From assembly GCA_002737705.1 (NCBI GenBank), contig NSIM01000003.1, positions 1 through 64,000 on the forward strand: 64,000 nt of DNA, given 5' to 3'. The stretch is from Flavobacteriales bacterium (lineage in GTDB: Bacteria > Bacteroidota > Bacteroidia > NS11-12g > UBA955). Of this stretch, positions 18,420 to 63,825 are shown piece by piece (position 1 is the stretch's first letter; every line of letters begins with the position of its first letter). The position numbers and the translations under genes were made by a program. Under the pieces are notes generated by a model that ran no database searches, was not told the origin of the DNA, and worked only from the letters and a program-made list of their open reading frames with translations.

Positions 18420-20451
18420 TGAATTTGAAAGACTGGGGATCGGAGGAGGTAAAGCCCCAGCTGCCTTTGACCAGTTCTAGTCGTACGATATAAACGCCTT
18501 TTGCCAATCCATGGGTATGGAGCGCATAACGGTGGGTGCCGGGCTCAACGGTTAAAGTAAAACGACTGCGATCTGCAGTGGCGCCGCTATTTTCCGACAG
18601 ACCCGATTCGATGCCAACGCTTTGTCCGTTCAAATTGAAAACTTGACCCTTAATCGTGGCTTCCGTATTGACTTGAAATTCGATGTTCAGGTTTTCGGTG
18701 GTGGGGACAGGGAATACCCTCATGGTTGAAATGGGATTGTCGGCCACGGTGTCTTTGATTTTCACCCGAGCCACATAAGCGCTCATGCTATTGCCTTTGC
18801 CCCATGAGCCAACCAAATAGTAAATGCCTTTTTCGTTGAATTTTGCTTGAATGCCTTCGTAATCTCCCCAGCGCTGTTCTTTGGGCTTGATGAAGGTGTA
18901 GTTGATGATGGATTGTCCCTTTTTTAGTATTTGATAATCGCTGTATTCACCGTATCGATTGATGAAAAATGCCCCTGTTCCGGGGAAGTGTTTGGCACCT
19001 GAATAGACGCTGGTGACAATCATCGAAGGGTCTTGGGCTGATAATTCCGATGCGGGCGCATCTCCGGCTGCGGCCACGGCAGGATATCCAAAGTCTAGGC
19101 TATCGTTGGTGAAAAGATGTGCTTTTGTGACGGCGCCGCCTTCATTCCAATAGGTATGGTGGAGCGTTGCGCCGCTTGGCGAAGTGATATTGTAGATGCT
19201 GCCATGCATGATGTGGGCTTGCATCGTTTTGAAATTGAGGCAGTTTTGGAAGTAGTGAAGTTGTGTTCCGATCCGAACGCCGCTCAGTACCCTAGCATCG
19301 TTGGTTCGAAGTCGGAATGCGGTATCGGGTTGTAAAGCGCTGGAGGGGAATCCATATTTCAAAGGACTTTTGAGTACGCCCAATTCGTAGTTGGCTTGTC
19401 CGCTTCTGAGCGTGTTGGTGATTCGATGGACAAAAAGGGTGTCGTTTTGCTTGGTGTAAGGCCGAACACTCATAAAGTAGTTGTCGACCCCGTCCGGCAT
19501 CGGTCCATTTTGTATCGCGCAGATGCTCCAAATCGCAACGCCATTGTATTTAATATTGTGGAAGAAGTTCTTGTGCATGGTATCGCCCTTGAAACCATCT
19601 TCTTTGTTGAGTTGCCAGATTACGGCTTCCACGAAACCCTCTTCCCAGCTGCTTCCATTGTGTAGGAGATTGACGGTGAAGAACATGTCTTCTTTGGTTT
19701 GCGAAACGATGGGGTAGTCGCTCCAAACGGTATCTTGGATGGGCGTTCCGGGAACTTTATAGACATTCCAAGGTTTTGCGGGGTCGTTGGTGGTGGAGAA
19801 TCCCACGATGATAAAGCTATTTTTATTTGTGGTTCCATGCATAAAAACGACGATGTAGCGATCTTTATAGGGGTCGTACATGACTCTCGGATCATAGGTC
19901 CGATTCATGGTAGGGATGGGATCTTTTTTGATATTGGGGTTATTGGCGAAATAGTCGAGGGTAAAGGCTTTGATAATTTTACCGGTATCGTTATGCACGC
20001 GGATTACGGTATTCATGACGGAGACAATTTTTCCGTCGTTTCCTACGGCGATATGATTGTCGTTGGGGGTTCCGCCGCCAAACGGAACCTCAACACCGCG
20101 TTGGGGTTGTGTGATGATTGAATTGGGCGGGGTGGATTTGTCATGAATGATTCCACGGTTTTGAACGGGGTTGGTATGGCGGCGAGCGGAGCGAGCCGCA
20201 TCAATCTCGCGTCTGAGGTCCTCGTTGATTCCTCCTGGCAACGGCATTTCCGCTTCCCCATCCGTTGGCATCATCCAAATACTGGGCGTCGTTGCTGGAT
20301 CAAAAACATGCGATAATGGCGTTTTGATATCGCGAATCACATCGCAAGTGCCCCCCTTTTTGAACGAATTCTGGGGTTCGGGTTTGCTCTGTTGTGCCGA
20401 TGCCGTTACGCAAAATAAAAAAGAAAATACCAGGCTAATTATGGATTTCAT
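18409..20451 (-). CDS. Secreted T9SS cargo protein with C-terminal sorting domain
   Basis: The product is about 680 residues with a signal peptide (IISLVFSFLFCVTASAQ). The final ~90 residues match a type A sorting domain of the type IX secretion system: STMRVFPVPTTENLNIEF, then a turn-rich beta segment, then LAKGVYIVRLEL and a basic/hydrophobic end. The central region is beta-rich with many Trp, Tyr and Asp but matches no domain I recognise. Expected location is the cell surface or medium. The gene is strikingly GC-rich for this window: a hand count of 19021-19080 gives 39 G or C of 60. The start ATG 20451 is chosen at the signal peptide. It overlaps truB by 11 nt. Confidence 0.82.
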   Translation of the reverse strand: MKSIISLVFSFLFCVTASAQQSKPEPQNSFKKGGTCDVIRDIKTPLSHVFDPATTPSIWMMPTDGEAEMPLPGGINEDLRREIDAARSARRHTNPVQNRGIIHDKSTPPNSIITQPQRGVEVPFGGGTPNDNHIAVGNDGKIVSVMNTVIRVHNDTGKIIKAFTLDYFANNPNIKKDPIPTMNRTYDPRVMYDPYKDRYIVVFMHGTTNKNSFIIVGFSTTNDPAKPWNVYKVPGTPIQDTVWSDYPIVSQTKEDMFFTVNLLHNGSSWEEGFVEAVIWQLNKEDGFKGDTMHKNFFHNIKYNGVAIWSICAIQNGPMPDGVDNYFMSVRPYTKQNDTLFVHRITNTLRSGQANYELGVLKSPLKYGFPSSALQPDTAFRLRTNDARVLSGVRIGTQLHYFQNCLNFKTMQAHIMHGSIYNITSPSGATLHHTYWNEGGAVTKAHLFTNDSLDFGYPAVAAAGDAPASELSAQDPSMIVTSVYSGAKHFPGTGAFFINRYGEYSDYQILKKGQSIINYTFIKPKEQRWGDYEGIQAKFNEKGIYYLVGSWGKGNSMSAYVARVKIKDTVADNPISTMRVFPVPTTENLNIEFQVNTEATIKGQVFNLNGQSVGIESGLSENSGATADRSRFTLTVEPGTHRYALHTHGLAKGVYIVRLELVKGSWGFTSSDPQSFKFIVQ

Positions 20452-31503: not shown

Positions 31504-31878
31504 GTGAAAAAGTATATCCTTATTGTATCAACTATTTTGATTTGCTCGGTAGGAAGCCACAAACTCCTTGCCCACAGTAAATTGATGCCTTTTTTTATGG
31601 GTGACCAAGGCCCTCTTTTTTCCATTAATCCCAACCCGGTTACAGGTTCTTATTTTACGGTAAACATTCGTTTTTCTGATTCTCAGTTTCCAGATGCAGC
31701 CATTTTAGTGAATGATGTACTGGGTAAGATAGTCTATTCATACACAATTCGTAAAACTGACTACGCCACAGGACAGATTCGTATTGATTTAGATGAAGTC
31801 AAACTTGGCAAAGGCTTGTATTTTGTGCAAATAAAAAGTGGTTCTTCTACCAAAACATTGAAATTGGCAATACGCTAA
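31504..31878 (+). CDS. Signal peptide plus stand-alone T9SS sorting domain
   Basis: The product is 124 residues starting at GTG. A signal peptide (YILIVSTILICSVGS) is followed within about 40 residues by a complete type A sorting domain: FSINPNPVTGSYFTVNI, then AAILVNDVLGKIVYS, then LGKGLYFVQIKSGSSTKTLKL. There is almost no cargo. Such short proteins would be exported by T9SS and may be attached to the surface by themselves or compete for the secretion machinery; that is inference. The GTG lies just after the terminator of the previous gene; the next gene starts 2 nt after its stop. Confidence 0.8.
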   Translation: MKKYILIVSTILICSVGSHKLLAHSKLMPFFMGDQGPLFSINPNPVTGSYFTVNIRFSDSQFPDAAILVNDVLGKIVYSYTIRKTDYATGQIRIDLDEVKLGKGLYFVQIKSGSSTKTLKLAIR

Positions 31879-41925: not shown

Positions 41926-42939
41926 TTATTGTAAATATTCCCAGGCAATTTTTGGATAGCCTTTTTTACCTTGGTCATTGTAGAAGTCTATGAAACGCAA
42001 TTTTAAGATTACGCCAGCCTCGCGAATCAAATAAACCCTATTTGGAACCATTGTATATCGATCTGAAACCGGGTCGTATTGTTTCCAATCATAGCCGATC
42101 TCATCCTTTTTTTTTGAAAATATCACCTTTTGGGCAAAGTTTAGATCAATCTTATGAAAGGGTATATTGTTGACTTCTGCGACTTCTATTTTTAGGGGAT
42201 TTATTAAAACGCCGCGAATGATATAAGGAAACGGAACACCATTTGGATCTGGTACAAATTTTTTGTATGTGGTAAAAACAATATCCCAATCATTGTTTAT
42301 AAAAGGTTCATCGTATACTTCTTTATGGTCGATGAAATTATAGTAAACGAAGTTCATTTGGGGATTTATGGCAAGGGTTTTTTTAAATCTTATGGCAGTG
42401 TCATTGAGATAACTGTATCCAAATCCATAGTAGCCTCCAGACAATCCAAGCAGTTGCAGTTTGATATAGCGCACACTATCAGTGATCTTTGCACCCAGAT
42501 CAATCAAAAAAATTTGGTCTACAATGTTGAATTTTCCGGGTCCATTTGGTATAAAGCATTTTCCAAACGCCAATGAGTCAATTTTTCCCGACGGATTGTC
42601 GAATTGCCAATTTGCATTGCGCAGACTGTCACGATTAATGCTTTTAAATGAGCAGTTGCCAAATCTAGCAATGGAAAAATGTACGTTTAATCCGCCATTT
42701 GTTATAACCCGTGGAACGTTATCGCACGAAAACCCAATATGCCATAAACCATATTGATTGGTTCTTATTTGTTGTGTTTTAAAGGAGTACCACAATTGTT
42801 TTTCGTAGGTTTCACCCATTGAAAAGGTTTGCGTTTGCAAGCCCGATGAAACCGAGGGCTGTGGAAATAGTTTTTCAGGTTTTTCGCATGACAGCATGCC
42901 CATAAATAAGACTGTGAAAACCCAAAAAAATGTTCTCAT
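41926..42939 (-). CDS. HmuY-like heme-binding lipoprotein
   Basis: HmuY proteins bind heme at the cell surface and pass it to a TonB-dependent receptor. The product is 337 residues with a lipobox (LFMGMLSC). The C-terminal HmuY pattern is visible: WDIVFTTYKKFVPDPNG, YIIRGVLINPLKIEV, IGYDWKQYDPVSDRYTMV and LRFIDFYNDQGKKGYP. The N-terminal ~130 residues are beta-rich and less conserved. It overlaps the receptor gene by 4 nt (ATGA), so translation is coupled. Heme-ligand residues cannot be picked from sequence alone; ligands vary in this family. Confidence 0.82.
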   Translation of the reverse strand: MRTFFWVFTVLFMGMLSCEKPEKLFPQPSVSSGLQTQTFSMGETYEKQLWYSFKTQQIRTNQYGLWHIGFSCDNVPRVITNGGLNVHFSIARFGNCSFKSINRDSLRNANWQFDNPSGKIDSLAFGKCFIPNGPGKFNIVDQIFLIDLGAKITDSVRYIKLQLLGLSGGYYGFGYSYLNDTAIRFKKTLAINPQMNFVYYNFIDHKEVYDEPFINNDWDIVFTTYKKFVPDPNGVPFPYIIRGVLINPLKIEVAEVNNIPFHKIDLNFAQKVIFSKKKDEIGYDWKQYDPVSDRYTMVPNRVYLIREAGVILKLRFIDFYNDQGKKGYPKIAWEYLQ

Positions 42940-45041
42940 TGGATGTTCAAAGTGAGTGAAACAAAGAAGGACCTACCAGGTGTAATCTGAAGTGCCCCAC
43001 CAGCCGCATGAATTACGCCCATTGATGGCAATCCATTCCCGGGGAAACCGAGACCTCTGTTCGGCGTTGTCATTTGGGTGATACCCAATATATTCTTACA
43101 GCCCAATTGCAATGTCATGGGCTGATTCAACGATATATTGTGAATTTTTTCTGGATTTTTTTTGCCTGTAATTTTTTTGCTTATACTGAAGTCTAACAGG
43201 GTATATGCTTCGGTATTGAATGGGGCGCCACCGTTGGCGTAAAATACTTGGGTTTCCCCCGAAAAACGGGTAAAAATTTGTGCGCTTATTTGGGGTTTTT
43301 CAAACGTATAAGCCAGATTTAGTTTTCCCTGAACAGTGTTAAAATTGATGGTTTGGGTTGTGTCATTTAGCCTGCTTTCATTGGAAATGCAGTCAAAGCC
43401 TGCTTTTACATTGAAGCTGCCTTGGTGGTAGTTAAATTCTGCACCAATTCCTTTGCTATTAAGCTGTCCAATATTGATGTATTTAAACAATCGTGTGGAA
43501 TTGTCTACAAGAGAAAGTTGTATTTGATTCGTGAGTTGATTGTAAAATCCTTTTACGGTTAGACTCACTGCCTGAAAGACCGATATCCCATGGCGGTAGT
43601 CGAAGCTTAGGATAGCATTTTGGGAAATTTCTGGAACCAGTTCCGGATTGCCTTGGACGTTATGATTGATGTCTACAAACAAAAAATTGCGTTCTTTTAA
43701 GGTTGGAGAACGAAAACCTTTTCCGTAAGAACCCCTCATGGTGATGTGTTTACTCAATGTCCATCGCGCTTGAAAAGACGGAATAAGGGGGGCAATTTTA
43801 CAAGCGGGCCCCAGTATTCCAGGAAAGGGGTTAAGGCCAAAAAGGCTGTTATACATAATGCGCAAGCTGGGTCGAATCGATAGTTTCTGGGCTATTTTCC
43901 ATTCTGATTCGACAAAAATTCCGACATCATTCATGGCATTGTCCTTTTTTACCCGTTTGGAACTCAGCGTTTCAGTGTTGGCGTCAAACCCATACAGAAA
44001 TTGTATTTTCTCTGAAGGTTTCCAAGAAACCAAAGCCCGAGAATTATAGGCCAAATTGAGGGTTGTATCTATTTCTCCAATGAGGGATTCAATTTCTTCA
44101 CCCAATACCAAATTGCGACGCTTGAGCACATTGAATCGGTAATACCGATTGATTCCATTTGTCCATTGAACTTTGGCAGTCTTGCCCAGCAAGAAATTAG
44201 AGTGTAAGGCGAGATTGTTTCGCTGTGTGTAAAATCGGTTGTTATACCCATACACCGAAACCAAATTGTATTCGGCATCACTTCGGTCTAACATCATTTC
44301 ATGGAGCATCGAACCGGAAAGTTGGTGCTGACTTTTACCCTTTTTAATCAGAATATCGGCATTGGCAAACACCTTGGTTTTGGGTTTCCAATCGAAGCTA
44401 CGGTTCGACGTATCAAAATCCACTCCTCCAAAATAGTGTCTTCCGATAGAAAATGACAAGGGGATTTGATATGATTTATTGCCAACACTGAGGGGATATT
44501 GGGCATAGGATTCTATATTAAAGTGATTGGTGGCATCGGCGTATGCGACCATGTTTGACTGGGTTTTGGTTTGAAGTTGTTTGGTGATGATATTAATGAC
44601 TCCAGCAATAGCATCTGAACCATATACAACTCCCATTGGGCCTTCAACAATTTCAATGCGCTCAATTTGTCCAACCATAATTTGCCCGAGATCAATATTT
44701 CCATTGAGGCGGCCAATCATCGGGATTCCATCTATGAGAATCTTCACTGCTTGCCCACCCAGTCCTTGCATCGTTATTCCTGTGCCCAATTGGGCATCTT
44801 GTCCAATCAAAATACCCGACTGATTTTGAAGTACCTCAGCGAGGTTTTGTGCGCCCATTCTTCGGATCGTTTTACCAGAAATAACCTGAACGTTGTAAGG
44901 AGACTGGCTCATTTTTTTTACATCTGTATTGCCAGTAATCATCACTGGATCAATGAGGTCAGAATTTGAAATGCTGTCGGATACCTGCCCAACAGAAATC
45001 AAGGGCGCGAGAAAAAACAGTGAGGCAAGTTGGCGAAACAT
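42936..45041 (-). CDS. TonB-dependent outer-membrane receptor (heme-type)
   Basis: The product is 701 residues. A signal peptide (QLASLFFLAPLISVGQ) is followed by a plug domain (about 45-150: VQVISGKTIRRMGAQNLAEVL, GLGGQAVKILIDGIPMIG, IERIEIVEGPMGVVYGSDAIAGVINII, each a known plug motif split here) and a 22-strand barrel ending in an aromatic strand. The TonB box cannot be fixed with certainty. Location between two HmuY-like genes indicates heme or a hemoprotein as substrate. The first gene in the operon starts 24 nt upstream. Confidence 0.92.
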   Translation of the reverse strand: MFRQLASLFFLAPLISVGQVSDSISNSDLIDPVMITGNTDVKKMSQSPYNVQVISGKTIRRMGAQNLAEVLQNQSGILIGQDAQLGTGITMQGLGGQAVKILIDGIPMIGRLNGNIDLGQIMVGQIERIEIVEGPMGVVYGSDAIAGVINIITKQLQTKTQSNMVAYADATNHFNIESYAQYPLSVGNKSYQIPLSFSIGRHYFGGVDFDTSNRSFDWKPKTKVFANADILIKKGKSQHQLSGSMLHEMMLDRSDAEYNLVSVYGYNNRFYTQRNNLALHSNFLLGKTAKVQWTNGINRYYRFNVLKRRNLVLGEEIESLIGEIDTTLNLAYNSRALVSWKPSEKIQFLYGFDANTETLSSKRVKKDNAMNDVGIFVESEWKIAQKLSIRPSLRIMYNSLFGLNPFPGILGPACKIAPLIPSFQARWTLSKHITMRGSYGKGFRSPTLKERNFLFVDINHNVQGNPELVPEISQNAILSFDYRHGISVFQAVSLTVKGFYNQLTNQIQLSLVDNSTRLFKYINIGQLNSKGIGAEFNYHQGSFNVKAGFDCISNESRLNDTTQTINFNTVQGKLNLAYTFEKPQISAQIFTRFSGETQVFYANGGAPFNTEAYTLLDFSISKKITGKKNPEKIHNISLNQPMTLQLGCKNILGITQMTTPNRGLGFPGNGLPSMGVIHAAGGALQITPGRSFFVSLTLNIQ

Positions 45042-45064
45042 CGCGGGCAGGAATCCTAAGAAAT

Positions 45065-46405
45065 TTACTGTTTAATAAAAGGAAGATTAATGTGTTCGGT
45101 AGGGGTTTGAACCAAAATACGGTAAGATCCAGATGCGAGTTGTTCTATGGGAATACGCAAGGTTGAATCATTCAGCGATAAAGCGTTGAGTGAAGAAATC
45201 ACACGCCCGTCTAAACCCAATAATTTGATGCTGGCCGATTGGGATTCTGTTGAAATCCACAACAGCAATTCTTTTTCTGCTGGATTGGGAAATACTGTCG
45301 CACGCAACTTATTTGTTTTACTTACAGCACTTACGCGTCCCTTTAGTTCTTGGCGATTAAAGTATGAATCTCCTTTTCCAGATCCCGAAAAACCCGAAAA
45401 ACCAATCATCCAATAGGCTGTGTCGATGACTTTACCTTGGTTTCGAACGCTTTCAACGATATACGTCCAAGTGCGTTCAATTTTCCACGTCATGGTTGCA
45501 TTGTCGTAACTTTTCCAATTAGAGCCAATTTTTGTAAGGTCTTTGCTAAGCTCATTTTGGTTGCCTTGTGTTTTGATCTCATCCAATACCTTGGCTGGAG
45601 TTTGATTGATTTCACTCCACGTATAATTGGCGATTTTTGAAATTCTGGTTCCACGTTTGCTTTCAACACCCATGGTTGGGTAAAATACTGGACTTCCGCC
45701 ACCAGGGGGAACTGTCAGGGCGAGGTATCGGGTAAACAATATGTCGTAATTGTCGCGCAGGGGTTCAACCTGGACTTTTCCCTTGGTGAAACTATAATAT
45801 TTATAACTGTTACCCGTAAAATCTGATTGCAAAAGGGTGTCAGTCCTGTTTATTGTTCCATCTAAACTTCCCAATTTAAAGATGAAATCTCCGGAGATCA
45901 GTTGCGCAATTGGCATAAATTTAAGAAATGATATCCCTGTATTTGGGATGCTTATTACCAATAGATATAAGGAATCTCCAGTGATAATTTTGGTTGTGGG
46001 ATCATAAACTCCCCAACTAAAATCCCACATATTTTTTTTGTTAACAGATTGATTTAAGGCACCCAATTCGTGAACGTGGGTATTGTTATAGTATTTTTTC
46101 CAGTTAGGCCATCCGCTCGTGTCCATAGAAGAATAAGCCGAATTATCCCCTTTTGGGTAAGCGTAAACTTCGATTCCATTCATGTGATTGATTCGGATAC
46201 AATTGTCGCGTGAAACAGTTGTGTGTGCCATATCCCAAGCGTTTATAGGGGCGGGTGTTTTTTCTCCAGTACGAAGGTTAAAATACAGGGCACTGGAATA
46301 CCCTTGTCTCATGGTTGCCGTATCAGCAATTATGGTTTGTGACTTACACAGTGAGGGTAATGAAAGGAAGAAGAAAAGGACTGTTTGGAATAGAATTTTT
46401 TTCAT
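45065..46405 (-). CDS. HmuY-like protein with T9SS sorting domain
   Basis: The product is 446 residues with a signal peptide (FQTVLFFFLSLPSLCKSQ) and no lipobox. The middle carries the HmuY pattern seen in its lipoprotein neighbour: WDMAHTTVSRDNCIRIN, YDILFTRYLALTVPPGGG, RGTRISKIANYTWSE, IGSNWKSYDNATMTWKIE and a final WMIGFSGF strand. The last ~85 residues are a type A sorting domain (LRATVFPNPAEKELLLWI ... LASGSYRILVQTP). So this protein should be secreted by T9SS rather than lipid-anchored. It is first in the heme operon. Heme binding is inferred from fold and neighbours. Confidence 0.8.
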   Translation of the reverse strand: MKKILFQTVLFFFLSLPSLCKSQTIIADTATMRQGYSSALYFNLRTGEKTPAPINAWDMAHTTVSRDNCIRINHMNGIEVYAYPKGDNSAYSSMDTSGWPNWKKYYNNTHVHELGALNQSVNKKNMWDFSWGVYDPTTKIITGDSLYLLVISIPNTGISFLKFMPIAQLISGDFIFKLGSLDGTINRTDTLLQSDFTGNSYKYYSFTKGKVQVEPLRDNYDILFTRYLALTVPPGGGSPVFYPTMGVESKRGTRISKIANYTWSEINQTPAKVLDEIKTQGNQNELSKDLTKIGSNWKSYDNATMTWKIERTWTYIVESVRNQGKVIDTAYWMIGFSGFSGSGKGDSYFNRQELKGRVSAVSKTNKLRATVFPNPAEKELLLWISTESQSASIKLLGLDGRVISSLNALSLNDSTLRIPIEQLASGSYRILVQTPTEHINLPFIKQ

Positions 46406-52531: not shown

Positions 52532-53533
52532 TTAATACTTGACTTTTCGAATAATATAAAACACCAATGGGGCGCCGATAATTGCCATCATCGCATTGAT
52601 TGGAAGGGTAAAATTTTGAAATAGGTTATGGGATAATAAATCACCCGTAAGGGTCAATAGAATGCCACACAATGCGGTTGGAAGAATGTTTTTACCGTGT
52701 GATTCTGTGCCGCTAATGCGGCGTGAAAGGTGGGGTGCAATTAATCCAACAAAAGATACAGGACCGCAGTAGGCTGTGGCCAAAGCAGCCATGACGGCAC
52801 TGCTTACAATTAATAAGAAACGCAATCTATGGGTTGATTTTCCAGAACTGAGTACATGGATATCGCCCAGCAAATACGTGTTAAACGAATGGCGGTTATA
52901 CCAAAGTATCGCTCCGCCAAAAAAAGTTGCCGCGGCAAAGGGAAACAATTGGGAAATTTCTATTCGGTCAAAGTTTCCCATTCCCCAAAGCACAAATTGT
53001 TTGACTTGTTGTGCGGATGCCATTTGTTCGATGATGTCAACCGCAGCCCCAAAGAAATATCCGAGAATTAATCCCAATAAAAGCAAACTGTGAAGTTGTT
53101 GCAATCGTTTGTGAAGCCACAATTGAATCCCCATTACCATTAAGGCTCCAAATAAGGCAGCAATGGGTTGAAATGAAACACCCCATCCGCTATAGTCACT
53201 AAAATAGTATCCTCCGAAGAAAGTAAGCACCGCTATACCAAATGATGCCCCCGGTGTAATGCCTATCAAAAATGGTCCAGCCAGGGGATTGCGAAACAAT
53301 GTTTGCATCAGTAGGCCGCTCCAAGCCAGAGATATTCCAGCCAAAACAGCACCCAATACCCTTGGCAAACGAAGTTGAAAAAACAGGTTGCTGTCGAAAG
53401 TCGGAGATACATTCCTGCTCAGTATCGAAAGCCCAGCCATAAGGTCATAGCCCAACAATGCCAGAATAAAAACCCCTAGAACGATTTGTATGGCTGTATC
53501 TTTTTTCATTCTTCTCGTTTGGGTTTGGGTCAT
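52532..53533 (-). CDS. FecCD-type ABC transporter permease
   Basis: This is an inner-membrane permease of the BtuC/FecCD family that imports iron chelates, heme or cobalamin. The product is 333 residues with about nine to ten helices. Family motifs are visible: LRLPRVLGAVLAGISLAWSGLLMQ (split by its turn), NPLAGPFLIGITPGASFG, and GPVSFVGLIAPHLSRRISG, the EAA-like loop that contacts the ATPase. A start at ATG 53509 is also possible. The binding protein lies just upstream, but no ATPase gene is found on either side. Confidence 0.92.
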   Translation of the reverse strand: MTQTQTRRMKKDTAIQIVLGVFILALLGYDLMAGLSILSRNVSPTFDSNLFFQLRLPRVLGAVLAGISLAWSGLLMQTLFRNPLAGPFLIGITPGASFGIAVLTFFGGYYFSDYSGWGVSFQPIAALFGALMVMGIQLWLHKRLQQLHSLLLLGLILGYFFGAAVDIIEQMASAQQVKQFVLWGMGNFDRIEISQLFPFAAATFFGGAILWYNRHSFNTYLLGDIHVLSSGKSTHRLRFLLIVSSAVMAALATAYCGPVSFVGLIAPHLSRRISGTESHGKNILPTALCGILLTLTGDLLSHNLFQNFTLPINAMMAIIGAPLVFYIIRKVKY

Positions 53534-53596: not shown

Positions 53597-54733
53597 TTAT
53601 TTAGAACAGGGTAGATAATAATGGCTTTTCTCAACATCAAAGCTTGTGTCCTGAAAAATCATGAACAAATCTTGGAGTATTAGATTGGGATAGATGCAGC
53701 CCAAATCCCAATAAGGATTGCTTCCATTGGGGTTCAGTTTTTTGTTGTAATGGTATAAACGATTGTTGTTAAAAGCCTTAATGGATGAAATACGTTTATC
53801 CATAGCAAGTAAGCAATCACGGCTAGAACAAAGGTCTGTATTGATCCAAATATCGGCATTTGAAAAAAGTCGAATGGCTTGTTCAATCCCCAGGGTATTG
53901 GTTCCAGTCCCCCGGCTTGGCGCCACCAATAGATCAGCCCCTGCGTCGTAAACAATTTGTTTTTGGTAGGCGTCTTGTTGTGGCACAAACCAATGGCCAT
54001 TATAGGGGAGGTTGCTGGCAACCTTCGGACGGAATTTTACATGGCGGGCTTTTTCTCTTATTCTTTCATAGTCTAATTTGACGTGTTTGAATAGTTGTTC
54101 GCCTTGAATGGGTTTTCCCAAAATCCATGACAATGCACGAATCCATTCGGCCCTTCCCAAAGGATGAGGTTCGAGGTGATTTTGACACCACAATACCGGA
54201 AATTTGTCTTTGCCAATTCTGTCAATCAACGCAACATCGCTCCCATTGATGAAATATCCAATGAATAAATCGGGTTTACACAAAAATACCGTTTCGGGCA
54301 GAATCGACCCATTGGGTGCAACCTCAATCAATGGATGGAGAATGGCTTCATTATAAATCAAAGGATGAGATATATAGGCTTTAGATTCTATACCCGCCAA
54401 TTCGTGCATTTTCCCCAGCTCAGCAATCATCGCCGTATGAATGGCAGAAATACTCACAATGCGTTTGTGGGTTAAGATTTTTGTATACCCAGAGATTTGC
54501 GGTGACGTTCCCCAAAAAAACTGACCCAAAATCGTTTTGGCTTTGCCGCCAGAATACAGAATCAAAAAACTGTCTGATTCTGAACAACCCAGTGAGAAAA
54601 GTGAAGCATAGTCATTCTTTATCCACACAATGTCTGATTTGACTTCCAAATTTGGATTCGAATGGCATGAGAAAATGTATAAAAGGCATAGCGTAAACGC
54701 CCCAATTACAAGCCTTTTTGGTGTTTGTTTCAT
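53597..54733 (-). CDS. ABC transporter substrate-binding lipoprotein (BtuF/FecB-like)
   Basis: The product is 378 residues with a lipobox (LLYIFSC). The rest fits the periplasmic-binding family PF01497: RIVSISAIHTAMIAELG, IEVAPNGSILPETVFLCKPDLFI, and GADLLVAPSRGTGTNTLGIEQAIRLF (split across strands) with a C-terminal helical lobe. The substrate could be heme, a siderophore or cobalamin; the heme locus 7 kb away supports heme but does not prove it. ATG 54733 is chosen at the signal peptide; a longer frame runs into the region upstream. A TAATTTTG ends 8 nt before this ATG. Confidence 0.87.
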   Translation of the reverse strand: MKQTPKRLVIGAFTLCLLYIFSCHSNPNLEVKSDIVWIKNDYASLFSLGCSESDSFLILYSGGKAKTILGQFFWGTSPQISGYTKILTHKRIVSISAIHTAMIAELGKMHELAGIESKAYISHPLIYNEAILHPLIEVAPNGSILPETVFLCKPDLFIGYFINGSDVALIDRIGKDKFPVLWCQNHLEPHPLGRAEWIRALSWILGKPIQGEQLFKHVKLDYERIREKARHVKFRPKVASNLPYNGHWFVPQQDAYQKQIVYDAGADLLVAPSRGTGTNTLGIEQAIRLFSNADIWINTDLCSSRDCLLAMDKRISSIKAFNNNRLYHYNKKLNPNGSNPYWDLGCIYPNLILQDLFMIFQDTSFDVEKSHYYLPCSK

Positions 54734-54741
54734 CCGGTGTT

Positions 54742-54749
54742 CAAAATTA
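54742..54749 (-). promoter_or_regulatory. -7 promoter element for the binding-protein gene
   Basis: Read on the minus strand this is TAATTTTG, ending 8 nt before ATG 54733. It predicts a leaderless or nearly leaderless mRNA and supports this start. Confidence 0.55.
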
Positions 54750-54805
54750 GTACAAAATATCGCACAGCCATCGAAAGATTGTATTGTTAACTCCCTAAAA
54801 TCATA

Positions 54806-54813
54806 GACATTTG
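54806..54813 (+). promoter_or_regulatory. Possible -7 element (GACATTTG) for the DivIC/FtsB-like gene
   Basis: One mismatch to TAnnTTTG; the gap to ATG 54821 is 7 nt, the same as at several other genes in the window. Confidence 0.35.
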
Positions 54814-54820
54814 ATACACT

Positions 54821-55126
54821 ATGTTTCATCCCCTTTTTCGATACCGATATTATATTTTATTTGGTGTTTTTGCCATTTGGATGTCGTTTTTTGATTTAAA
54901 CAATATATTTTTTCGCTACCAACTACTCAGAGAAATTTCGATTCTGGAAGACAATATTACCGAACATAACCTCAAAATTGCTGAATTGGAGACGCTCAAG
55001 AAAGATCTTCTTGGCAATGATCGCAATCTCGAACGATTTGCCCGCGTAAAATACCTCATGAAAAAAGATGATGAAGATCTTTTTGTTATTGTGGAGGAAG
55101 AAAAAAAGGCGGAAAAGGATGAATAG
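54821..55126 (+). CDS. Septum formation initiator (DivIC/FtsB-like) protein
   Basis: This is a small bitopic cell-division protein that joins the FtsQ-FtsL-FtsB subcomplex. The product is 101 residues with one membrane helix (YYILFGVFAIWMSFFDL, residues about 10-26) and then a coiled coil (LLREISILEDNITEHNLKIAELE). A short conserved end ERFARVKYLMKKDDEDLFVI follows, the usual DivIC/FtsB layout. A charged tail (EEEKKAEKDE) closes the protein. It is followed by dnaN 90 nt later and is divergent from the ABC transporter genes. Confidence 0.88.
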   Translation: MFHPLFRYRYYILFGVFAIWMSFFDLNNIFFRYQLLREISILEDNITEHNLKIAELETLKKDLLGNDRNLERFARVKYLMKKDDEDLFVIVEEEKKAEKDE

Positions 55127-62853: not shown

Positions 62854-63825
62854 TTAAAAATTTGAAGTCAGGAGTATTCGGATTGTAGATGTCCCAACTT
62901 TTGCAATATAGATACCAACGGGTAGGTTTATAGTTGTTGATTGAATCCCGGACGGTATATATCGCTCTAATACCAATTTCCCTTTGGAAGAATAAACAGA
63001 TAGTTTTTGGCGGTTTGAATTCGAAGAAACAAGAATCTGTGTAGCGGTATTAAAGTATGGTGGACGGGGTTTTTCTGTGATTTTTTCTTGGCCTAAGGTC
63101 GCCAATTGGTGTATTACACCTACTGCATCTAGGTCAAATCCAGAACTCCCGAAATTCGTTGGCCATGGGTCGTTGACAATGCGACCATAACGATCTCGGC
63201 TACCCCAAAGCGAATCTATACACCCCACAACGTCAACTATTTTAATGAATCGAATCGTATCGGTATTGATTGCATCCACCTTCGGCAAATCGGCCAAATC
63301 AAATGGCGTTCCGAATGGGTGGCGGTATTTGCCCGCAAGGTTATGAATTTTTGTGGCTTGGGTAAATCCAAAAGCCGGGGTTTGTTTTTTTGTTGGGCTC
63401 AAAGATTCTGAGGGAAATCTTACCCAATGGATACTATCTGAACTCACTTCTACAAATGCCAATTCCAAGAAACTATCCGAAAAGGCATTTTCAAAGACTG
63501 CAAAATCAAACCCTTCGCCATCAAAAATGGGCGAGTCAAATCCCAAAATTGCAATTCCGCCATCCCCCAAACTCACGACACCTTTGCGCGTAGCTTCTCC
63601 AATAGAAAAATCAGAAATTCCAATATTGGCATAACCAGAATCGGCAAGGTTTATTTGTTTAAGTCCCCGCTTTATTGTGCATTGTGTTGCCCAAGATATA
63701 AAGCAAGAACTATCTGCTTTTATGGCACTTGATCCTGGCATTCCAGCTGCAGGCGCAAATTGAGCTAAAGTAGGCAGGCAAAAGACAAAATTTGCCATAC
63801 AAAAAAAACGGGTTAAAATTTTCAA
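62854..63825 (-). CDS. Secreted T9SS protein resembling corrinoid-locus surface proteins
   Basis: The product is 323 residues with a signal peptide (FCMANFVFCLPTLAQ). The last ~75 residues are a type A sorting domain (LSVYSSKGKLVLERYI, LPVGIYIAKVGTSTIRILL). The middle has VVSLGDGGIAILGFDSPIF and GFDFAVFENAF, followed by WGSRDRYGRIVNDPWPTN and GFDLDAVGVI. The SLGxGGxxxxGFD...FDFxxxxNAF pattern recalls surface proteins of Bacteroides corrinoid-uptake loci (BtuH-like cell-surface proteins), but similarity is partial and from memory. Location cell surface. A convergent 193-nt gap to the serine hydrolase holds no feature. Confidence 0.78.
   Translation of the reverse strand: MKILTRFFCMANFVFCLPTLAQFAPAAGMPGSSAIKADSSCFISWATQCTIKRGLKQINLADSGYANIGISDFSIGEATRKGVVSLGDGGIAILGFDSPIFDGEGFDFAVFENAFSDSFLELAFVEVSSDSIHWVRFPSESLSPTKKQTPAFGFTQATKIHNLAGKYRHPFGTPFDLADLPKVDAINTDTIRFIKIVDVVGCIDSLWGSRDRYGRIVNDPWPTNFGSSGFDLDAVGVIHQLATLGQEKITEKPRPPYFNTATQILVSSNSNRQKLSVYSSKGKLVLERYIPSGIQSTTINLPVGIYIAKVGTSTIRILLTSNF

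Follow-up and report, generated by a model that had tools for sequence, protein, structure and literature searches.

A conserved three-gene locus of Bacteroidota pairs two double-length HmuY-like proteins, one with a T9SS sorting domain, with a TonB-dependent receptor of probable heme-uptake function

We found that a TonB-dependent receptor encoded in a 64,000-nucleotide stretch of Flavobacteriales DNA (hereafter, the window) is flanked by the genes of two HmuY-like proteins, one with a T9SS type A sorting domain (sec) and the other a lipoprotein (lip), and that the order of this trio is conserved far beyond chance. Taken whole, the explanation that fits the locus best, and that we regard as probable, is a heme-uptake operon in which lip serves as a surface partner, sec as an exported collector and the receptor as the importer. 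Gene order, domains, predicted folds, conservation and gene context of the trio were observed directly; heme uptake is the best reading, in which we infer heme as the ligand, the export, the partnership and the order of transfer. In the proposed mechanism, the three genes would form one operon for outer-membrane heme uptake, and sec and lip, both HmuY-like and double-length, would stem from one old duplication. Lip would act as a lipid-anchored partner of the receptor at the surface, while sec would be exported by way of Sec and the T9SS, ending up on the surface or in the medium, where it could gather heme away from the receptor. Heme may then pass from sec to lip and on to the receptor, or reach the receptor directly from sec or lip; the receptor would import it with TonB energy, most likely for service as a cofactor in the lineage of the window.

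The open reading frames of the window place sec, receptor and lip in this reading order, all on the minus strand and at the positions given in the original prediction (Table 1), and the compact operon proposed there held up as well: the receptor and lip overlap by four bases (42936-42939) exactly as predicted, while the gap between sec and the receptor measures 23 bases by coordinates instead of the predicted 24. A divergent Hsp70 gene borders the trio on one side and recO on the other. A TAnnTTTG stretch before sec, similar to a -7 element, was discarded as too short to serve as evidence.

Table 1. Features of the trio and of a nearby candidate transport pair, in window positions.
Feature	Position	Strand	Basis
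sec, 446-aa T9SS-type HmuY-like protein	45065..46405	-	ORF, Por_Secre_tail, model, orthologues
sec signal peptide, residues 1-22	46340..46405	-	sequence; likely cleavage before Gln23
sec HmuY-like region, residues 24-356, comprising two repeats divided near residue 181	45338..46336	-	profiles, model
sec T9SS type A sorting domain, residues 366-446	45068..45310	-	Pfam (371-436), structure alignment
TonB-dependent receptor, 701 aa, FRSP ... His460 ... GNPEL signature	42936..45041	-	ORF, Pfam, alignment
lip, 337-aa HmuY-like lipoprotein, Cys18	41926..42939	-	ORF, Pfam, alignment, model
lip first HmuY-like repeat, residues 29-181, boundary approximate	42397..42855	-	model, half-profile matches
lip second HmuY-like repeat, residues 182-337, boundary approximate	41929..42396	-	Pfam, model, half-profile matches
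Periplasmic binding protein (Peripla_BP_2), candidate HmuT-like partner	53597..54829	-	family match; putative association
FecCD permease, candidate HmuU-like partner	52532..53533	-	family match; putative association

Domain searches, fold prediction and the lipidation site agree in identifying lip as the HmuY-like lipoprotein that had been predicted beside the receptor. Its Pfam HmuY match (PF14064) scores 51.7 bits against a cut-off of 27, HmuY is matched by 34 of the 36 lip members at E <= 0.01, and the lipoprotein cysteine, Cys18, is kept in 36/36 sequences. With the AlphaFold model of lip (mean pLDDT 91.2), the ten best Foldseek matches were all HmuY-like proteins, and alignments to HmuY-like structures gave Z values of 11.4-13.9 (3h8t: Z 13.7, rmsd 3.0, 138 residues aligned). 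The lipoprotein surface-export signal described as optimal in C. canimorsus is C-X-K-(D/E)2-X (PMC5080379), to which the CEKPEK tail of the window lip does not conform; by a loose rule of our own (K or R at +2 to +5 together with two or more acidic residues between +2 and +6), 31 of the 36 lip sequences bear a loose resemblance to it.

The T9SS sorting domain expected on the other HmuY-like protein was likewise recovered, with a Por_Secre_tail match of 31.7 bits in the window sec (Pfam, residues 371-436, cut-off 27), matches in 41/41 aligned sec sequences at E <= 0.05, and an alignment of the domain to 8qb1 with a VIA-align Z of 11.3, rmsd 1.6 and 75 residues aligned; the NCBIfam model TIGR04183 reaches 20.7 bits, below its cut-off of 23. 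The residue after the likely signal-peptide cleavage site is glutamine in 38 of the 41 aligned sequences, and the same genome encodes SprA (TIGR04189, 2174.9 bits) together with 47 sorting-domain matches, 36 of them over the cut-off. Judged from sequence, sec would be exported through the T9SS, and both release and surface anchoring are possible, as reported for T9SS cargo (PMC10202324). Further sorting-domain matches occur in the window at 31624-31872, 18475-18717 and 62884-63036, the last of them under the Pfam cut-off.

The HmuY-like nature of sec emerged from profiles and structure. Pfam HmuY (PF14064) gave no match in the window sec, and a phmmer search of PDB sequences with sec alone returned nothing useful, its weak hit to a hemagglutinin component (E 0.07) being put down to chance; 14 of 41 sec members match HmuY at E <= 0.05, and the sec proteins of the Aureispira (L077) and Phaeodactylibacter (L078) loci carry HmuY and the sorting domain, both over the cut-off. 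Foldseek with the whole sec model (mean pLDDT 87.7) yielded mainly sorting-domain and Ig-like matches, and HmuY surfaced only in a second structural comparison. The model aligns with 3u22, 4gbs, 6r2h, 8b6a, 6ewm and 8b61 at Z 11.6-14.4 (3u22: Z 14.4, rmsd 2.9, 139 residues aligned; 6ewm: Z 12.1, rmsd 3.2, 137 residues aligned), and this comparison of the AlphaFold model with HmuY structures, which the original prediction had suggested as a check, supported the HmuY-like fold of the sorting-domain protein.

Sec and lip are each about twice the size of the usual HmuY module, and the profiles of their alignments, built from 41 sequences of sec and 36 of lip, align over 328 columns with E 5e-41; alignments A2 and A3 leave out rows cut by contig ends or below a set length. 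Upon comparing halves, we obtained matches between the N and C halves of sec (E 3.5e-7, probability 93) and of lip (E 5.4e-5, probability 67), as well as cross matches between sec and lip halves (E 1.9e-6 and 6e-6), against controls of 0.14-0.23 for reversed columns and 0.025 at best for receptor pieces. In the lip model, the strands and the helix follow nearly the same order in the second half as in the first. An internal duplication is the likely, if not proven, source of the double length of both proteins. Alignments of sec or lip to HmuY-like structures cover 133-160 residues and span the N- to the C-terminus, though only ~140 residues align; our guess from the models is that the HmuY fold may correspond to the first hairpin plus the last part, with a second copy in between.

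A quick, unrooted tree of sec and lip (113 sequences), of a kind that is less safe with long branches, separates the two on one branch (SH-aLRT 99). It omits L027-L030, L042, L049, L054 and L055 as redundant (eight loci) as well as L066-L067. The sec/lip labels require two changes on this tree, the extra one owing to an upstream protein of L088 without the sorting domain, which bears the label L088_lip for want of that domain. This protein (L088:4215-5303) is of sec type and groups with sec. On the simplest reading of these sequences, one old duplication would have given rise to sec and lip, one of the copies retaining the sorting domain.

The trio recurs with little variation among relatives. 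Across 40 loci that belong to two families of the order, sec and the receptor keep the same order and strand throughout, and lip does so in 37, the contigs of L030, L034 and L045 ending before lip; six further loci, where full-length sec had initially gone unrecognized, comprise four with the full trio and two cut by contig ends. Combined, 41 of 46 related loci show the trio in this arrangement, and contig ends truncate the remaining five. A search with a single sec sequence missed true orthologues in G022, G024, G026 and G032, where it returned sorting-domain matches or none, and profile searches of the locus stretches recovered the whole trio in all four. We detected the receptor in 53 of 56 genomes, including 42/42 of those with at least 90% completeness and no more than 5% contamination.

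We extended the comparison to Bacteroidota at large, with one genome per species, and the top 80 receptor matches fell into 79 loci. Among these, the 36 wider loci L066-L101 contain the trio in 20 cases (19 with the sorting domain, one without it), a set that counts L066, which shares a contig with L038, in the related loci as well, and that does not lie wholly outside the two families, as L083 and L085 group with them in the tree. The others have the receptor and lip only (eight loci, with at least 1.5 kb of upstream sequence), the receptor and sec only (three), a contig edge (three with receptor and lip, one with receptor and sec) or the receptor only (one, classed as 'other'). The last is L067, whose 3.9-kb contig carries a receptor but no HmuY-like gene. 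L102-L144 hold more distant receptors, some with weak HmuY-like neighbors.

As lip occurs without sec in eight loci and sec without lip in three, neither strictly needs the other. This favors a version of heme uptake without a relay, in which lip and the receptor would be the working pair and sec, surface-anchored or released, would feed the receptor directly or buffer heme; the two fates described for T9SS cargo (PMC10202324) suit it too. This version overlaps with the explanation that we prefer, whose order of transfer is not fixed, and we give it a substantial but less than even chance; against it, all 41 uncut loci of the two families retain both sec and lip.

That heme is the likely ligand, as originally predicted, is supported by gene context and by a histidine pattern in the receptor. 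L077 and L078 carry consecutive genes for sec, a periplasmic binding protein, FecCD, an ABC ATPase, HemS and the receptor, and the same four transport and HemS genes stand beside the receptor and lip in Pontibacter (L086), Emticicia (L092) and Pedobacter (L099), the family assignments having been checked for L078, partly for the other four loci and otherwise made by clustering. The L078 ATPase passes the NCBIfam heme ABC model (276.7 versus 261 bits); HutX scores stay below the cut-off. The receptor of the window (Pfam plug 80.2 bits, barrel 104.7 bits) displays the boxes GFRSP ... H460 ... GNPEL, and His460 lies between the FRSP and GNPEL boxes in 37/37 close receptors and in 34 of 36 wider-subfamily receptors (the rest being one Ile and one gap in a cut sequence), as against 0 of 43 other receptors, six of them gapped there. 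This position, accompanied by FRAP and NPNL motifs, is described in a review as conserved in heme receptors (PMC6449446). Among the His columns of the receptor only H460 and H678 reach 75%, and the alignment contains no conserved plug-domain histidine (His128 of the HemR type).

The heme ligands of P. gingivalis HmuY have no fixed equivalents in sec and lip: His166 aligns with N302 of sec, a position that varies in both proteins, and His134 falls in an insertion without a counterpart in either. In the alignments, no His or Met besides the start Met is conserved at 75% or more in sec or lip. Tfo of T. forsythia is reported to use Met as a heme ligand (PMC9331221), and because other HmuY-like proteins use other ligands, the missing His134 and His166 do not exclude membership of the HmuY family.

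Close relatives of the window appear mostly unable to make heme and yet keep heme-copper oxidases. Ferrochelatase and HemB were each found in one of 56 genomes and HemS in 0/56, absences that are probable rather than certain because the same kind of search missed the HmuY gene of the window's own genome (0 Pfam matches, a false negative given the score of the window lip); COX1 was found in 54/56 and FecCD in 47/56. With the synthesis genes apparently missing and heme-copper oxidases present, heme is most likely a cofactor in this lineage. The one genome with HemB and ferrochelatase, G034, encodes them ~1.3 kb apart (L155, G034:C10:226000-233000) and keeps its trio elsewhere (L064). Ferrochelatase was also present in 15 of the 35 wider genomes checked, a set that did not include that of L067. 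Together with G034, these genomes indicate that the trio is not a mark of auxotrophy, and we rejected it as a general marker of heme auxotrophs. Ferrochelatase is present in the genomes of all five HemS-linked loci (Fisher p 0.009, a post hoc value that ignores relatedness).

A different cargo, such as an iron compound or a cobamide (siderophore, B12), with the HmuY fold as a mere scaffold, would be compatible with several of these features, as the best NCBIfam model for the receptor is a B12 receptor by a small margin (127 bits versus 120.4 for the TonB-hemin model TIGR01785, both far under the cut-off, which is 316.85 for the latter), sec and lip do not conserve the heme histidines of P. gingivalis HmuY, and Bacteroides lipoprotein-receptor pairs are reported to carry siderophores and B12 (PMC13142918). 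We nevertheless hold it to be unlikely in view of the five loci in which this receptor subfamily neighbors HemS and heme ABC genes, the His460 pattern and the apparent loss of heme synthesis in the lineage. We give slightly less credence still to the idea that sec is no hemophore but, as a T9SS surface protein, binds other organisms' heme proteins, which would agree with its lack of canonical heme ligands and its lower conservation (mean column identity in the alignments 31% versus 38% for the receptor) but not with the fold and full-length homology common to sec and lip.

The heme-uptake operon that we favor resembles the HmuY-HmuR system of P. gingivalis in that an HmuY-fold protein, there in lipoprotein form, is encoded beside a TonB-dependent receptor, and differs from it in having two HmuY-like proteins of about double length, in not conserving His134 and His166 and, for the window trio, in lacking adjoining hmuSTUV. 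P. gingivalis also has Hbp35, which to our knowledge is not HmuY-like. As a T9SS-deployed heme-binding protein, Hbp35 is comparable to sec as proposed here (PMC10202324). In P. endodontalis, a gene for a T9SS type A sorting-domain protein, POREN0001_0445, lies upstream of hmuY and is reported to belong to the operon, which is similar to the trio in this respect but includes hmuSTUV; the available text does not state that the protein is HmuY-like (PMC11208336). T9SS-domain genes are also marked in a 2025 drawing of hmu clusters (PMC12106395). F. psychrophilum HfpY is reported to bind heme and to be co-transcribed with its receptor (PMC9331221), so that HfpR-1813-HfpY parallels the trio, with the differences that it has one HmuY-like protein and that the FRAP/NxxL motifs are described as only partly conserved in HfpR.

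The presumed novelty of a T9SS-exported HmuY did not survive this comparison. HmuY of F. columnare (C6N29_01035) combines an HmuY domain with Por_Secre_tail, as sec does, and is described as T9SS-secreted, its deletion reportedly causing no growth defect in the media tested (PMC9618737); we liken it to sec by this description and not by sequence, and in contrast to the trio, no receptor or lipoprotein partner is shown in the available text. We found no paired or double-length HmuY proteins of the sec/lip kind, and no link between BtuH and HmuY, described in the open-licence literature. The locus unites known parts in a combination that we did not find described, while a T9SS-exported HmuY alone is not new.

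The HmuY systems that we found in the literature come from mouth, gut and fish bacteria, and the locus suggests an older arrangement, present across distant Bacteroidota, of two specialised HmuY-like proteins, one for each export route. More speculatively, and with rather more doubt than confidence, we suggest that this is a widespread Bacteroidota heme-uptake system in which an old duplication produced a T9SS-exported and a lipid-anchored double-HmuY protein that would serve one receptor as a pair, bind heme without the His or Met ligands of the HmuY proteins studied so far, and feed respiring heme auxotrophs in nature. If the trio does import heme, it would help to explain the heme supply of oxidase-bearing Flavobacteriales that seem unable to make heme, and would provide a natural case of two export routes carrying paired sister proteins for one nutrient. 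The pairing of sec and lip and its conservation are worth testing.

Several observations concern the surroundings of the trio. About 6-7 kb upstream of it in the window, the only FecCD gene found in the genome adjoins a Peripla_BP_2 gene (Table 1), and we regard this pair as a candidate for the inner-membrane transport step; FecCD lies at a similar distance from the trio in several relatives. L095 has an altered order, with the receptor followed by lip and then by sec with its sorting domain (L095:6695-11725), and sec of L085 is split into two overlapping open reading frames, possibly by a frameshift (L085:5732-7002). Downstream of lip, L066 carries a PD40/TolB-like gene (L066:10008-11111), for which the window offers no room between lip and recO. 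Close to the trio, or to the receptor and lip where these stand as a pair, several loci encode a DUF6607 protein (L069:5254-6231, 382 bits in this member, the one scanned), related proteins being encoded in L065, L070, L084, L091 and L098. Near the upstream end of L047, L049, L051, L052, L055, L057-L062, L079, L081 and L085, we noted a related and mostly divergent gene whose product is of the AraC type in the two members scanned and is a possible regulator.
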